A DNA stretch of 35,360 nt from Desulfobacteraceae bacterium CG2_30_51_40 (GTDB lineage Bacteria; Desulfobacterota; DSM-4660; Desulfatiglandales; Desulfatiglandaceae): assembly GCA_001874005.1 (NCBI GenBank), contig MNYJ01000154.1:1-35360 (forward strand). The letters are read 5' to 3'. The notes beneath the pieces are model-generated. The model made no database searches and was not told the origin of the DNA. It worked only from the letters and a program-made list of their open reading frames with translations. This document shows positions 622-24,522 of the stretch, piece by piece. The translations under genes and the position numbers were made by a program. The first letter of the stretch is position 1. Each line of letters starts with the position of its first letter.

Positions 622-1233
622 ATGAAACAAGTAGTGATTCACCCTGAAAGGTGCGTGGGGTGCATGCAGTGCATGGTGGCATGTGCGACCGCCCATTCCA
701 AGACCAAAAGCCTTCCTGGGGCCCTTGGGGAAAGCCCGCTTCCCAAGCCGAGGATACATCTGGGGACAGGGCTTTATCGGGAGGGTTTCCCTAACCGGTG
801 CCGACACTGTGACCCTGCACCTTGCATGATGGTCTGTCTCCCGGGGGCCATCTACAGGGAAGAGGTGGGGAACACAGTGCTCATCAACGGGGAGAAATGC
901 ATCAATTGCGCCACCTGTGCCATGGCCTGTCCCTTTGGCGTAATTAGATATCACGAGGATAGCCTGGGGCCTCCGGGCAAGGCCATAGCCGTGAAATGCG
1001 ACAATTGCATTGACCGCCGGGCCAGGGGGCAGGTGCCCGCCTGTGTGGAGGTCTGTAAATGCGGGGCACTCACCTTCGAAGAGCCTTCGTCTTCCTTTAA
1101 GAGAAAGACGGACGAGATGGCCAGGAGGGTGTCTGCCGGCGCCGAAGAGCGGGCGGAAGTGGCATCGCCTGGCTTTGTTCTTATGAATGTTCTTAAAAGA
1201 GCACAGGTTGAATTATCCGGGCGCGAAGCCTAG
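622..1233 (+). CDS. cooF: CooF-like 4Fe-4S ferredoxin (electron transfer partner of CO dehydrogenase)
   Basis: The protein has 203 residues from the ATG at 622, chosen because AAGGAGG lies at 608-614; an in-frame TTG at 589 is less likely. It has four cysteine groups typical of the DmsB/HycB/CooF ferredoxins: CVGCMQCMVAC near the N-terminus, CRHCDPAPCMMVC, CINCATCAMAC, and CDNC followed by PACVEVC. This fits four cubane clusters. There is no signal peptide, so it should be cytoplasmic. In known CO-oxidising systems CooF takes electrons from CooS and passes them to a hydrogenase or flavoprotein. Here it lies between an FAD oxidoreductase and cooS, which argues for electron delivery to NAD(P) rather than to a hydrogenase. 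It is 25 bp upstream of cooS and surely co-transcribed. The C-terminal 30 residues are charged and lack cysteine. Confidence 0.88.
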   Translation: MKQVVIHPERCVGCMQCMVACATAHSKTKSLPGALGESPLPKPRIHLGTGLYREGFPNRCRHCDPAPCMMVCLPGAIYREEVGNTVLINGEKCINCATCAMACPFGVIRYHEDSLGPPGKAIAVKCDNCIDRRARGQVPACVEVCKCGALTFEEPSSSFKRKTDEMARRVSAGAEERAEVASPGFVLMNVLKRAQVELSGREA

Positions 1234-1258: not shown

Positions 1259-3154
1259 ATGAGCGATAAGACAAAGAAATTTGAAAAATACACTATCACG
1301 CGTGACGGTCAACTGATGCTGGGAAAGGCGGAGCAGGAACAGATCGAGACCGTTTGGGATCGTTTTGAAGACCAGTTGCCCCAGTGCGGCTATTGCGAGA
1401 TGGGACTGAGCTGCAGAAACTGCGCCATGGGCCCCTGCCGCGTGGACCCCTTTGGTGAAGGGCCTCAGAAGGGCGTATGCGGCGCCGACGCTGATATCAT
1501 CGTGGCAAGGAATTTCGGACGGATGATCGCAGCCGGCGCTGCCTCACACTCGGATCATGGTCGCGACCTTGTGGAGGTATTGGAAAAGGTGAGCCAGGGC
1601 AAAGCGCCCGGATATAAGATCAATGATTCTGAAAAATTGATGCGAGTGGCGGCTGAATACGGCGTCGCTACGGAGGGTAAAGACGCCCTCACCGTGGCAG
1701 GTGAACTCTCTTACGCCATGCAGGAAGACTACGGAACACGCAAGAAAGGTATCCAACTCATTTCCAGGGTGCCGCCAAAACGCTTGAAGGTGTGGGAAAA
1801 GCTCGGGATCATACCCAGGGGAATAGACCGTGAGACCTCGGAGATGATGCACCGAACGCACATGGGTGTGGACAATGACTGGCTCAATCTGCTTCTCCAG
1901 GGCATGCGAAATGCGCTTTCCGACGGCTGGGGAGGTTCTCTCATCGCAACCGAGGTCTCGGATATCCTCTTCGGTACGCCTAAACCGGTAAGTTCCACCG
2001 TCAACATTGGAGTTCTCAAGGAAGATCATGTCAATATTCTCGTGCATGGCCACAACCCTGTGGTGTCAGAAATGATCTGCCGGGCCGCCGAAGACAATGA
2101 ACTCGTGCGGCTGGCCAGAGAAAAAGGCGCCAAGGGGATCAACCTTGCCGGTCTTTGCTGCACTGGCAATGAACTCCTGATGCGCCACGGGGTCCCCATG
2201 GCCGGCAATCATCTCATGACTGAGCTGGTTCTCATGACGGGCGCAGTGGAAATGATTCTCGTTGACTATCAGTGCATCATGCCTTCTCTGGGGCATGTGG
2301 CAAAATGCTTTCACACCCGTATGATCTCCACGAGCGACAAGGCCAAGTTCCCTGGGATGGACCACAGGGAATTTCATCCTGAAAATGCCGCTCAGCTTGC
2401 CAGGGAACTGGTGAAGGAGGCGGTTGAAAACTTTACAAACAGAAATCCCGACAGGGTCTATATTCCTGTGGACCCGGTCCAATGCATGGCGGGATTTTCG
2501 GTTGAGGCCATTCTCGGGGCGCTTGGAGGTAGTCCTGCTCCCCTGATAGATGCCCTTAAGGCCGGAAAGATCAGAGGAGCCGCAGGCATAGTCGGGTGCA
2601 ACAACCCCAAGATCAGGCAGGACTACGGGCACGTAACCCTTGCAAAGCGACTAATTGAAAATGACATCCTGGTCTTGGATACGGGATGCGCTTCAGTGGC
2701 CACGGCAAAGGCCGGTTTGAAGGTGCCGGAGGCCATTCGGCTTGCAGGGCCCGGGCTCAAGGAAGTGTGCGGAGCCTTGGGGATTCCACCGGTCCTCCAT
2801 GTGGGCAGTTGTGTGGACAATGTCCGGATCATGGTCCTTGCCGCCGCGCTTGCCAATACCCTTGGGACGGATATTAGCGATCTACCCCTGGCAGGTGCCG
2901 CTCCCGAGTGGTATTCGGAAAAGGCCGTTTCCATCGGGGTTTATGTGGTAGCCAGCGGAATCTTCACTGTGCTTGGGCCTACGCCGCCCATAACAGGAAG
3001 TGCCAAGGTGGTGAACATGGCCACTGCCGGTCTCAACGATGCAGTGGGGGCCTGTTTTGCCGTGGAACCGGATCCAGAAAAGGCAGCCGTTCTAATCAGA
3101 CGCCACATCGAAAAAAAACGAAAGGGGCTGGGGTTGTCCTCGATCGAGGTATGA
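1259..3154 (+). CDS. cooS: Anaerobic (Ni-Fe) carbon monoxide dehydrogenase catalytic subunit
   Basis: The protein has 631 residues from the ATG at 1259, preceded by GGAGGAGG. CooS interconverts CO and CO2 at a NiFeS C-cluster as a cytoplasmic homodimer. All C-cluster ligand positions of the family are present: His265 in HGHNP, Cys301 in LCCTGNE, Cys339 in DYQCIMP, Cys447 in VGCNNP, Cys477 in DTGCAS and Cys518 in HVGSCVDN. The histidine-rich proton path is seen in AASHSDHG. B-cluster cysteines are Cys52, 55, 60 and 74. The D-cluster region reads PQCGYC (Cys43, Cys46), and Ser51 occupies the place where CX7C enzymes have their second ligand. This CX2C pattern matches the Desulfovibrio-type [2Fe-2S] D-cluster. 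No cooC or cooJ nickel-insertion gene is visible. The gene ends an FNOR-cooF-cooS unit closed by a hairpin at 3168-3207. Confidence 0.96.
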   Translation: MSDKTKKFEKYTITRDGQLMLGKAEQEQIETVWDRFEDQLPQCGYCEMGLSCRNCAMGPCRVDPFGEGPQKGVCGADADIIVARNFGRMIAAGAASHSDHGRDLVEVLEKVSQGKAPGYKINDSEKLMRVAAEYGVATEGKDALTVAGELSYAMQEDYGTRKKGIQLISRVPPKRLKVWEKLGIIPRGIDRETSEMMHRTHMGVDNDWLNLLLQGMRNALSDGWGGSLIATEVSDILFGTPKPVSSTVNIGVLKEDHVNILVHGHNPVVSEMICRAAEDNELVRLAREKGAKGINLAGLCCTGNELLMRHGVPMAGNHLMTELVLMTGAVEMILVDYQCIMPSLGHVAKCFHTRMISTSDKAKFPGMDHREFHPENAAQLARELVKEAVENFTNRNPDRVYIPVDPVQCMAGFSVEAILGALGGSPAPLIDALKAGKIRGAAGIVGCNNPKIRQDYGHVTLAKRLIENDILVLDTGCASVATAKAGLKVPEAIRLAGPGLKEVCGALGIPPVLHVGSCVDNVRIMVLAAALANTLGTDISDLPLAGAAPEWYSEKAVSIGVYVVASGIFTVLGPTPPITGSAKVVNMATAGLNDAVGACFAVEPDPEKAAVLIRRHIEKKRKGLGLSSIEV

Positions 3155-20905: not shown

Positions 20906-22792
20906 ATGAGTGAAAAGACTTATTTAATCAAGGTGCTGATGCTAGATGCATCGAGCGGCTTTTATAAGATCATGCGTTACCATGTCGGAGATTTTTTCGG
21001 ACCCGTTGATCTGGGCATTCACCTCTCCTACAAACACAACAGCCTTAATATCGGGGCCGGGCTCTTTGCCGGATCGGTATTTCCAGGCTCAAATCGTCTT
21101 ATATTCACGGGCATATCGCCTTGCTGGCATGGATTCTACATATCCTCCATGGGCGGGGCCGCCTTGGTCTTTGATAACCTCGGGATCAACATGCTTTCGA
21201 TCATCGGCAGGGCGCCTCATCCTTCCATCATCTACCTAAACAGGAACCACGGCGAAGAAATTGAGGTGGAATTAGCCGGGGCAGCACCCGATGTTGTATG
21301 GAATAAAGGGCGAAAGGGAGTTTACGCAGTTATGGAAGAGGCCCTCGATCTTTTCGGGGACAGATATGAGAGCGATCCAAGGGTGCTCTCCTGCGGTCCA
21401 GCATCTCTTTATAGCGATTTTGGTGCGATTTGTTCCCCTCCCATTCAAAAGCGTTCACTGTCATTTGCAGACACATGGGCCGGAAGAGGCGGTTTCGGGT
21501 CCAAGCTCATGCAAGAGCACGGGATACTTGGAATCATATACGGCGGAACACACATTGACGAAGATTTCTGTGACCGCTCGGTTGCCGATCAATGGTTCAA
21601 GGACAAATACCACCAGCGCATGGCGGCAAAGGATCTTGAGGCGACCACCAAATACAGATACGACCCAAAGTTCAACACTGGCGGCACCTTCGGGGTAAAC
21701 TATGCCTCTATGGAGGGAAACATCCTTGCATTCAACTACCGGAGCGTCTATTGGAGCGAAGAAGAGCGAAGGGACTTGCACAGGCGCTTCATAGCAGATC
21801 ATTATCTCAAGCAGTTCAATGAAGAAACAATTAAGCCTAAGAAGCAGAAGACCTGCGGAGAGCCTTGTGCAGCAGTATGCAAGAAGCTAAACGGCCCATA
21901 CAAAAAAGACTATGAGCCCTATCAGGCCATGGGACCTCTTTGCGGCATATTCGATCAGCGCGCAGCCGAGATGCTCAACCACCATTCCGACACTCTGGGC
22001 TTCGACGCCATAGCGGCGGGAGGGGTCCTTTCGTGGCTCATGGATTGTATGGATGAGGGGGTCATGGAGCCTCAAGAGCTGGGGGTTGTCCAAAGACCGC
22101 ACTGGGACATGAAGTCCTTTGACGTTGTCGAAGACTCCATGCACAACGCAAGCATTGGAAAGGCCCTCCTGGACGAGATGGTTAGGCCTGGGGGCAATAT
22201 CCCGCTAGGCCTCGGACCCAGGAAATTTGCCCGCCGTCTGGCAAGGAAGAAGGGAAAGAGAGTTATGGATCTTTTTGTCCATAACGCATTTGCCAGGCAG
22301 GGATGGATGGTTCCAAACCAGTACTGGACTCCGGGAGTATTCGCTCCCATGCCCATAGTTGGAAAATATTACATGCACTACGGCCAGGACTTCCTGCCTC
22401 CGAGGGAACTCGGCAGAGAGAATGCCCGCCGCATGCTTAAGGAACTCATGTTGGACAATCTGGGAATATGCCGTTTTCACAGGGCATGGGCAGAGGATCT
22501 GATGCCCGATATATTGGAGAAGATCTTCGGACTAAAAGACAGGTTCCTCGAATCGGTAAGGCTTACCGCGAGCCGCATAGCAAGCAGGAATGCATCGGTT
22601 TTCTGGGAATCGGAGCGCAATATTGACACGGTCTTTAGCTTTCTTAGAAGGAAGAAGGTGGACGAAGCGGAAAACCCTGACCTTGACCATTGGCTGGAGT
22701 TCTTCGCTCAGGACAAGCAGGCAGCAGCCTATGAATTCTGGTATGAGATCCACAAGGGCATACACGAGACGCTCAGGGAGTTCCCCGCCTGA
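20906..22792 (+). CDS. Aldehyde ferredoxin oxidoreductase family protein (tungstopterin-type)
   Basis: The protein has 628 residues. The N-terminal pterin-binding domain has the family pattern with GAGLFAGSVFPGSNRLIFTG, SSMGGAALVFDNLGI and ADTWAGRGGFGSKL. Cysteines 317, 321 and 325 (TCGEPCAAVC) and Cys522 (LGICRFH) probably hold the single 4Fe-4S cluster; the first spacing is three residues rather than the CX2C of the Pyrococcus enzyme. LGFDAIAAGGVLSW is the helix that normally follows the first cluster ligands. Family members oxidise aldehydes, or reduce acids, with ferredoxin as partner in the cytoplasm. Length and motifs are intact. It follows the LOG gene, and no ferredoxin or pterin gene lies beside it, so the physiological substrate is open. 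Confidence 0.9.
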   Translation: MSEKTYLIKVLMLDASSGFYKIMRYHVGDFFGPVDLGIHLSYKHNSLNIGAGLFAGSVFPGSNRLIFTGISPCWHGFYISSMGGAALVFDNLGINMLSIIGRAPHPSIIYLNRNHGEEIEVELAGAAPDVVWNKGRKGVYAVMEEALDLFGDRYESDPRVLSCGPASLYSDFGAICSPPIQKRSLSFADTWAGRGGFGSKLMQEHGILGIIYGGTHIDEDFCDRSVADQWFKDKYHQRMAAKDLEATTKYRYDPKFNTGGTFGVNYASMEGNILAFNYRSVYWSEEERRDLHRRFIADHYLKQFNEETIKPKKQKTCGEPCAAVCKKLNGPYKKDYEPYQAMGPLCGIFDQRAAEMLNHHSDTLGFDAIAAGGVLSWLMDCMDEGVMEPQELGVVQRPHWDMKSFDVVEDSMHNASIGKALLDEMVRPGGNIPLGLGPRKFARRLARKKGKRVMDLFVHNAFARQGWMVPNQYWTPGVFAPMPIVGKYYMHYGQDFLPPRELGRENARRMLKELMLDNLGICRFHRAWAEDLMPDILEKIFGLKDRFLESVRLTASRIASRNASVFWESERNIDTVFSFLRRKKVDEAENPDLDHWLEFFAQDKQAAAYEFWYEIHKGIHETLREFPA

Positions 22793-22883: not shown

Positions 22884-24362
22884 TTAAGGACGTCCCCTCT
22901 GATGAAGTCTCACTATGGTCTTGTTGAGTTCATAGCGGCCATCAGCGAATACACCGTAGTCGCCTCCGAAACCCATGGCTGAGGCAAAGCGAATGGTATT
23001 GGCATAAATAACCCACGAATCCGCCCATATTCTCTCAGGCTCCTCATCAAAGGGGCTTCCCCCTTCGGACGGTCCCTTGGCATAGCCTGCAGCCCATATT
23101 CCGCTAAGGATTTGCGTGGCTGTGAGAGTCTTTGCATTTGTCTCCTTTATTGAGCTTTCAAACCGCTCCCACTGCCCTGCTACTGTTGAGGATCCGTGGC
23201 AGGCTCGGCAAATCGTCTGGATGCCTTTTCGTCTCGAATCCATTTCTTTGACATCAATAAGGTAATCCGCCGCAAAGCCGCCGGCAAAATCTGATGGAAG
23301 AGGCGCTCCGTCCTTATTGCGGATGATGGTTGTGTCGGGATTCTTAGGATGGGGGTGGGCGTATATGAGGCCGAAGATACGCCAGGGAAGCCTGTCGTTC
23401 ATCCTGTGGGACCTCTTCGCAATTAGCTCTCCGCCGGAGCTTACCAGAAGGCTTACGTGGCAGGCTGCGCATGTGGGCGCGGAGAAGTCCTTACCCACTG
23501 TCCAGGGAACCTTACGAAACTCCCAGTCCCTGCCGTGACTGGAGAAGATATTTCCGTGCTTGCTTGCTTCATAGACCTTGAAGGCAGGCACATCAGGCCC
23601 TACATGACATTGTTTGCAGGTGTAAGGCTTGCGGGCCGTTTCAATGGAAAAGCGATGTCTGGTATGACACGCCGCGCACGAACCGATTGTCCCGTCGAGA
23701 TTTACACGGCCCGTTCCCTGGTTAGGCCAGCCTTCTATCCTGGGAAACTCCATATCTCCATAATCATCATAGGCCCTCTTTTCTTTGCCTGTGACCTTAA
23801 GTACTGTACCGTGGCAGTGATAGCAGGTTTCAGCTTTAGTAACCCGGCTTGCCGGAGCGTTTTCCATTTCAGCCTTATCCCTGCCTACCGCTCCCAGAAT
23901 GCTGTGCTCAAGGAGGCCATAGAGCTTGTTTTCGGCAAGGTTTCTGTAGGCATGCGACATGAGATTCATGGAATACTGTTCGGCCTCCTCCGAATGACAA
24001 ACACGGCAGTCGCCCGGACTGACCGCCGTATAGACCTTATGATCATTATGGTCAAAAGCGTCGGCATGCTCTTTCGGCCTCATGGTATGACATTCGGCGC
24101 ATCCGACGGCCTTTCCCTTTAACCCATCCGGGATGTCCCTGCTTGAGACCTTTAATCCAGGCCCTTTCACACCAAGTGCATCTGAAGGACTCATCTGTGA
24201 GTGGCGGCTTTTTTGCCAGTCCTCCACTATCCCCGGATGAATGATGGAATGACACTCAAGGCATGCTTTCGTAGCATCGCTCAAGGCAGCCCCTGAAACC
24301 ACACCGCCCAACCCACCAATCAGAACGGCGAAAACGACTATCCAAGCGAACACAATCTTCAT
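22884..24362 (-). CDS. Octaheme c-type cytochrome, hydroxylamine-oxidoreductase-like
   Basis: The protein has 492 residues from the ATG at 24362, with GAGAGGA about 7 bases upstream; the frame continues to 24437 without a credible start. A signal peptide (MKIVFAWIVVFAVLIGGLG) sends it to the periplasm. Eight CXXCH motifs are present: CLECH (Cys34), CAECH, CRVCH, CYHCH, CAACH, CKQCH, CAACH and CRACH. The spacing and the segment RLPWRIFGLIYAHPHPKNPD are typical of the HAO/octaheme nitrite- or hydroxylamine-active family. In aerobic ammonia oxidisers a C-terminal tyrosine crosslinks the P460 heme; in reductive HAO-like proteins it is absent. I could not decide with certainty which of the C-terminal tyrosines, if any, corresponds. 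It stands alone on the minus strand, divergent from a hybrid kinase gene. Confidence 0.9.
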   Translation of the reverse strand: MKIVFAWIVVFAVLIGGLGGVVSGAALSDATKACLECHSIIHPGIVEDWQKSRHSQMSPSDALGVKGPGLKVSSRDIPDGLKGKAVGCAECHTMRPKEHADAFDHNDHKVYTAVSPGDCRVCHSEEAEQYSMNLMSHAYRNLAENKLYGLLEHSILGAVGRDKAEMENAPASRVTKAETCYHCHGTVLKVTGKEKRAYDDYGDMEFPRIEGWPNQGTGRVNLDGTIGSCAACHTRHRFSIETARKPYTCKQCHVGPDVPAFKVYEASKHGNIFSSHGRDWEFRKVPWTVGKDFSAPTCAACHVSLLVSSGGELIAKRSHRMNDRLPWRIFGLIYAHPHPKNPDTTIIRNKDGAPLPSDFAGGFAADYLIDVKEMDSRRKGIQTICRACHGSSTVAGQWERFESSIKETNAKTLTATQILSGIWAAGYAKGPSEGGSPFDEEPERIWADSWVIYANTIRFASAMGFGGDYGVFADGRYELNKTIVRLHQRGRP

Positions 24363-24522
24363 AAACAAATCCTCTCCCAAGACCCGGCCCGAACGAAAAA
24401 CTCTATGGTTTACCTTACAATAAATAGTTGTTAACATACGCGGCCAATATGTGCAAGGTTAAGCGGAGCCGCCTGAATGAAAAAAGCTTTCAGGTGGAAT
24501 TCTTGTAACTACTTAGAGAAAG

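Follow-up and report, generated by a model that had tools for sequence, protein, structure and literature searches.

The closest described enzyme is the CooS of Desulfovibrio vulgaris (Nitratidesulfovibrio; PDB 6b6v and 6b6w, structural group E-2), a CO dehydrogenase (CODH) with a [2Fe-2S] D-cluster in its crystal structure. The excerpts of PMC6168284 tie this cluster to a C-X2-C motif; in them, H266 and C302 bind Fe(u), C340 binds a cubane iron and C519 binds Ni; C301, also conserved, is an additional ligand when the cluster is oxidised, and K556 is proposed to act as the base. This CX2C D-cluster type is already classified in print, as the accessible parts of three reports show: PMC6344411 assigns a type III D-cluster to groups D-1, D-2, E-2 and G-1 and counts D. 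vulgaris among E-2, PMC13240472 reports D-cluster types II and III from marine genomes, spread over clades B-E, and PMC10979024 describes a 2Fe-2S CODH, DsCODH of Dethiosulfatarculus sandiegensis, with a Cys-X-Phe/Tyr-Cys motif. The D-cluster itself is nothing new. Another structurally known enzyme, the CODH of Thermococcus sp. AM4 (6t7j), was placed in clade E by PMC13056359.

The window analysed here is a whole stretch of 35,360 nucleotides from Desulfobacteraceae bacterium CG2_30_51_40, and corresponds to the entire contig C33 of the source genome (G000). The cooS frame is open from 1187, so the start at 1259, which the preliminary description had also used, is a reasoned choice; a GGGAGGAGG tract some 10 bases before it lends support. 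Translated from there, the gene is intact and encodes a 631-residue protein, MSDKTKK...PQCGYCEMGLSCRNCAMGPCR. The whole protein scored 704 bits with TIGR01702 against a curated cut-off of 478, which makes it a Ni-CODH (CooS), and also matched the Pfam domain Prismane. Its best sequence match in the PDB was 6b6v (814 bits), and the closest fold to its AlphaFold model was 6b6w (TM 0.97, 59% identity over 625 columns). The features of the locus are collected in Table 1.

Table 1. The cooS locus and related loci. Coordinates are those of the window unless a locus is named.
Feature	Coordinates	Strand	Basis
FNOR (FAD/NAD(P) oxidoreductase), C-terminal part, 194 residues, cut by contig start	1..585	+	Pfam Pyr_redox_2, Rubredoxin_C
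CooF-like ferredoxin (4Fe-4S dicluster domains), likely electron acceptor of CooS	622..1233	+	Pfam Fer4_11 and others
cooS, anaerobic Ni-CO dehydrogenase catalytic subunit, 631 aa	1259..3154	+	TIGR01702, Prismane, PDB 6b6v
D-cluster motif C43-G-Y-C46 (CX2C, type III)	1385..1396 (C43 1385-1387, C46 1394-1396)	+	Translation, mapping on D. vulgaris CODH, genome pattern search
Ser51, place of the second Cys of the CX7C form	1409..1411	+	Translation, mapping; Ser in 82/82 sequences checked
B-cluster ligands C52, C55, C60, C74	1412..1480 (codon starts 1412, 1421, 1436, 1478)	+	Translation, alignment, mapping
C-cluster ligands H265, C301, C339, C447, C477, C518 (Ni), conserved C300, catalytic K555	2051..2923	+	Mapping on D. 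vulgaris
Second CooS locus of the source genome	L006:675-3742 and L005:16145-17983 (contigs C125 and C154)		
CODH/ACS operon without AcsA, source genome	L176:205-5431 (contig C172); counterparts L188, L189, L191, L192, L194, L195		
AcsA-class CODH with in-frame TGA	L106, L107, L112-L121, L145-L159; e.g. L116:1441-3498	- (L116)	

The N-terminal motif of the window CooS reads PQ-C43-GY-C46-EMGL-S51-C52-RN-C55-AMGP-C60, and alignment to the D. vulgaris CODH pairs C43 with C42, C46 with C45 and S51 with T50. The preliminary description had placed Cys43 and Cys46 in a CX2C motif, with Ser51 before the first B-cluster cysteine, Cys52, and translation bore this out; the alignment with structurally known CooS that it had proposed was run against the D. 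vulgaris chain and found no cysteine at the CX7C position. A second cysteine at this place is ruled out by S51, and against a misread or chance motif stand the translation and the absence of any backward-control match to the CX2C pattern in 395 genomes. The B-cluster ligands, the C-cluster ligands and the catalytic lysine are all present. Each C-cluster ligand, said earlier to be intact, does have its D. vulgaris counterpart (H265 = H266, C301 = C302, C339 = C340, C447 = C448, C477 = C478 and, for Ni, C518 = C519), as do the conserved C300 (C301) and K555 (K556). We take D. vulgaris C448 and C478 to be cubane ligands from the alignment and from what is generally known of the CODH family.

The resemblance to D. 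vulgaris lies in the fold, the sequence, the CX2C motif, a residue other than cysteine before the first B-cluster cysteine, all C-cluster ligands and the lysine, and the difference in a Thr where the window CooS has Ser51. The CX7C-like D. vulgaris variant C45G/T50C (6vwy) alters exactly the two positions at which the window CooS is D. vulgaris-like. DsCODH, in the passages of PMC10979024 available, has the same Cys-X-Phe/Tyr-Cys motif as the window CooS, and a protein of the same species (L027, possibly DsCODH itself) is 74% identical to it and is encoded behind CooF and FNOR; no difference between DsCODH/L027 and the window CooS was found in the features compared. The Thermococcus sp. AM4 CODH is also similar (788 bits, TM 0.97), but it carries CX7C, so a [4Fe-4S] D-cluster would be expected there. 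The motif signature of the PMC6168284 excerpts, together with the homology to D. vulgaris (59% identity, TM 0.97), supports the earlier proposal that CX2C denotes a Desulfovibrio-type [2Fe-2S] D-cluster.

CX2C was present in all 79 readable sequences of the 80 nearest relatives fetched (64-77% identity to the window CooS; L073 and L086 included, L075, which lacks the N-terminus, left out), with record titles naming Desulfobacterales, Syntrophobacteraceae, Actinomycetota, Chloroflexota, Nitrospirae, Acidobacteriota, Myxococcales and others. In all 82 sequences checked, Ser preceded the first B-cluster cysteine, and the second D-cluster cysteine was preceded by Tyr in 55 and by Phe in 27, which is the form given in the accessible part of PMC10979024. 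C43, C46, S51 and C52 were invariant in an alignment of 28 sequences reaching down to 65% identity. At the DNA level, the CX2C-X5-C-X2-C-X4-C pattern was found in 77 of the 395 genomes of the phylum, a count that takes in other clades (e.g. CPFC..G..CDLC, L141, L142), with a backward control of 0 in every genome; the CX7C pattern was found in 235 of them by a per-genome tally, the backward control giving one match each in 6/395. The wording 'less common' for the CX2C D-cluster fits these figures.

In a FastTree phylogeny of 132 sequences, 131 of them typed (one short row was untyped), a single branch with a support of 99 separated the CX2C rows (the window, its relatives and D. vulgaris) from the CX7C rows; the window CooS thus falls in clade E beside D. 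vulgaris, in a tree with few reference sequences and a long D. vulgaris branch. L054, L075, L085 (partial), L141 and L142 were left out, and CX2C forms of other clades are thus absent from this tree. The protein also has the attributes of group E-2 (Inoue et al. 2019), that is, a type III D-cluster Cys-X-X-Cys-(X)5-Cys and a complete active-site motif, and adds one more E-2 enzyme to an already mapped class. A [2Fe-2S] D-cluster in the window CooS is well supported by homology. With a probability of about 0.85, we read the window CooS as a complete Ni-CODH of structural group E-2, in which C43 and C46 of both dimer subunits would form a solvent-exposed D-cluster, most likely [2Fe-2S].

L141:2484-4382 and L142:4066-5994, from the order relatives G043 and G058, represent a CX2C CODH type of another clade (CPFC..G..CDLC) and gave the two best TIGR01702 scores among the CooS of the order genomes searched. 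CX2C is therefore not one clade across all CODHs, and the excerpts of PMC6344411 agree.

Genes for FNOR and CooF adjoin the window cooS; the contig starts inside the FNOR gene, so only a C-terminal fragment of FNOR is seen in this genome. The nearest relative, the CooS of G019 (81% identical), lies in a complete unit of FNOR (412 aa), CooF (203 aa) and CooS. The gene order is conserved: of the 73 relatives, among the 80, whose loci reach at least 700 nt upstream, 70 have CooF immediately before CooS, and FNOR was near CooS in 42 of 48 loci covering 2.3 kb on both sides (35 upstream, 7 downstream) and was not found within this distance in the remaining 6. No cooC adjoins the window cooS; a CooC homologue encoded elsewhere in the genome (contig C155) shares 68% identity with the CooC from the CODH/ACS operon of a relative. 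This arrangement differs from that of D. vulgaris, for which the part of PMC545781 at hand lists cooS and cooC as one operon and predicts a CooA site for it. Some E-2 genes adjoin FNOR according to the available sections of PMC6344411, where FNOR-CooF partners like those of the window also accompany CODHs of other structural groups (C-1, C-2, D-3, G-1 and E-1). Since the C-cluster and the catalytic residues are intact, activity of the window CooS is expected: CO would be oxidised at the C-cluster, and the likely job of the enzyme would be to couple this oxidation to NAD(P) reduction, the expected electron path running through CooF and then FNOR. In many Desulfobacterota-like genomes, the CX2C D-cluster is accompanied by this FNOR-CooF unit, which is NAD(P)-linked, rather than by oxidative-stress genes.

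The source genome encodes a second CooS, found by the TIGR01702 search, which is split over contigs C125 and C154 (their ends overlap by 164 bases at 96%) and has a CX7C motif (CPIGAESACC). On C125 it is preceded, in the same direction, by genes for a Fur-family regulator, rubrerythrin, desulfoferrodoxin and flavodoxin. The regulator is presumably PerR. A nitroreductase-like gene and a rhodanese/ferritin-like gene follow this CooS. The same or similar oxidative-stress surroundings were found for the CX7C-class CooS in 4/4 relatives looked at, all on unbroken contigs: it comes after a Fur-family regulator, rubrerythrin and flavodoxin in G001, after thiol-peroxidase-like and rubrerythrin genes in G004, and after a Fur-family regulator in G019 and G021 (names are Pfam-based for G000 and G019, and come from reading the sequences for G001, G004 and G021). 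Beside the window cooS no oxidative-stress gene was recognised.

These surroundings bear on the statement, made in the preliminary description, that CX2C and the [2Fe-2S] D-cluster are linked to a different oxygen behaviour. The statement holds for the D. vulgaris CODH, on which alone this behaviour was measured, but it does not transfer to the source genome, where the oxidative-stress neighbours are those of the CX7C CooS. It could be proposed that the CX2C enzyme is an oxygen-tolerant or oxygen-stress CODH, its [2Fe-2S] D-cluster being an adaptation to O2 exposure, since the D. vulgaris D-cluster is linked to O2 resistance in the portions of PMC13240472 available and the D. vulgaris enzyme recovers its full activity after O2 (PMC13056359). 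We consider this unlikely: it is the CX7C paralogue, not the CX2C enzyme, that sits behind the Fur-family regulator, rubrerythrin, desulfoferrodoxin and flavodoxin genes, so CX2C would mark no oxygen-stress role in this genome, and the gene company speaks against an oxygen role read from the motif. Moreover, the Thermococcus AM4 CODHs (one of them CX7C here) are slower with O2 than ChCODH-II (PMC13056359), and D-cluster type is thus not the sole determinant. As both enzymes occur in one organism, the link between D-cluster and oxygen resistance is testable within it.

The two CooS genes, in three pieces, are the only ones that the TIGR01702 search of the contigs found in the source genome, and its CODH/ACS operon has no AcsA: on C172 the AcsB frame, open from 1771, follows that of CdhD, which closes at 1767, and CdhE lies behind. 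A relative with the full operon (G008) has the order CooC, CdhD, AcsA, AcsB, CdhE. Ten genomes were examined for this adjacency; CdhD and AcsB were directly adjacent in 7/7 with both in view (G000, G001, G019, G449, G037, G051 and G040), and the contig ended first in G033, G053 and G012. Six of these AcsA-less genomes, all with CdhD and AcsB in view (G449 left out; G001 is 66% complete), were compared for CooS: every one keeps a CooS that matches the PerR-locus enzyme in TIGR01702 score class and coverage, and an E-2 CooS was found only in G000 and G019, which makes the CX7C enzyme, rather than the window CooS, the better candidate for the ACS partner. That the window CooS is itself the CODH half of a CODH/ACS whose operon lost acsA, as the few bases between CdhD and AcsB and the presence of just two CooS genes might suggest, is in our opinion very unlikely, because G037, G040 and G051 (and the less complete G001) keep the PerR-locus CooS with no E-2 CooS found, the PerR-locus class is nearer AcsA in the tree, and the partners of the window gene are CooF and FNOR. 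A broader scenario, in which acsA was lost from the operon and separate CODHs share its job, the CX2C FNOR-linked CooS feeding ACS or draining CO and reductant around it and the CX7C paralogue having taken on oxidative stress, also strikes us as quite unlikely; if true, it would put an oxidative-stress role on CX7C, the reverse of what the D. vulgaris D-cluster work would lead one to expect.

It is extremely improbable that the motif is vestigial, its two cysteines binding another cluster or none: the AlphaFold model, a metal-free monomer, has low confidence at residues 41-70 (pLDDT 48-60 in the D-cluster loop), but C43 and C46 are invariant in the 28 aligned sequences down to 65% identity and recur in D. 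vulgaris, where the [2Fe-2S] cluster was seen in the crystal (PMC6168284, in the excerpts cited).

Of more consequence than the E-2 enzyme of the window is a lead from its relatives. Many AcsA-class CooS genes retrieved with TIGR01702 from the order genomes contain exactly one in-frame TGA, and in each gene read it replaces the Cys of VG-C-NNAR, the C-cluster ligand equivalent to C447 of the window CooS and C448 of D. vulgaris. A DNA pattern for this VG-U-NNAR site matched 15 of the 85 genomes of the order, in 12 of 47 genera, with a backward control of 0; in G008, the gene with the TGA lies in the CODH/ACS operon. A six-pair hairpin with the loop UGGAU or UGGAC starts 13 bases past the TGA in 15/15 of these putative selenocysteine (Sec) forms, each with at least five of the six pairs, at a mean energy of -9.6 kcal/mol; the mean in the same region of 27 Cys homologues, with 0 to 5 pairs, is -1.9 kcal/mol. 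Pairing was seen in 98.9% of hairpin cells, against 40-66% with the partner slid, and one pair covaries, at a single position (G-C in 9, U-A in 6). In the 11 loci scanned, the hairpin had no Rfam match, even at E 10, so the SECIS reading comes from structure comparison only. Sequencing error, a pseudogene or a changed code were ruled out as sources of the TGA, which is the same codon at one position in 15 genomes, with a hairpin specific to it.

The search for the Sec machinery covered 12 of the 15 Sec genomes, the other three lying outside it: SelB was over its cut-off in 11/12 and tRNA-Sec over its gathering score in 11/12, each genome having at least one of them. The machinery is likewise present in most Cys genomes, with SelB above its cut-off in 49/61. 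The 15 Sec and 3 Cys AcsA genes group together in the tree (support 80), which requires three changes in all. The AcsA of G018 (L100) has Cys at VG-C-NNAR, is nested among Sec forms and keeps the hairpin loop letters CTGGAT, and looks like a Sec-to-Cys reversion. Judging from these genomic data, the AcsA of the Wood-Ljungdahl pathway with an in-frame TGA is probably a selenocysteine CODH. The selenoprotein reviews PMC13188914 and PMC9312934, in their accessible portions, give only the gamma-subunit-like HgcA/CdhE, and no Sec-containing CODH catalytic subunit was found in the portions of the literature searched. If true, a CODH with Sec as a C-cluster iron ligand would represent a NiFeS site of a new kind and, within the bounds of this literature search, would give the Wood-Ljungdahl pathway a new selenoprotein family.

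Some further observations concern the tRNAs. A SelB-like gene adjoins a tRNA with a TCA anticodon at four loci (L160:2412-4496, L161:1783-3901, L162:1805-3892 and L163:1050-3126), possibly a second selB-selC pair; in G004, G036 and G009, the tRNA by the SelB-like gene scores lower as tRNA-Sec than another copy located elsewhere in that genome. The source genome has two tRNAs with a TCA anticodon (L165:3-94 and L166:2016-2113). In the window itself, a gene with the aldehyde ferredoxin oxidoreductase domains AFOR_N and AFOR_C (20906-22792) is adjoined by a multihaem cytochrome gene (22884-24437, - strand).
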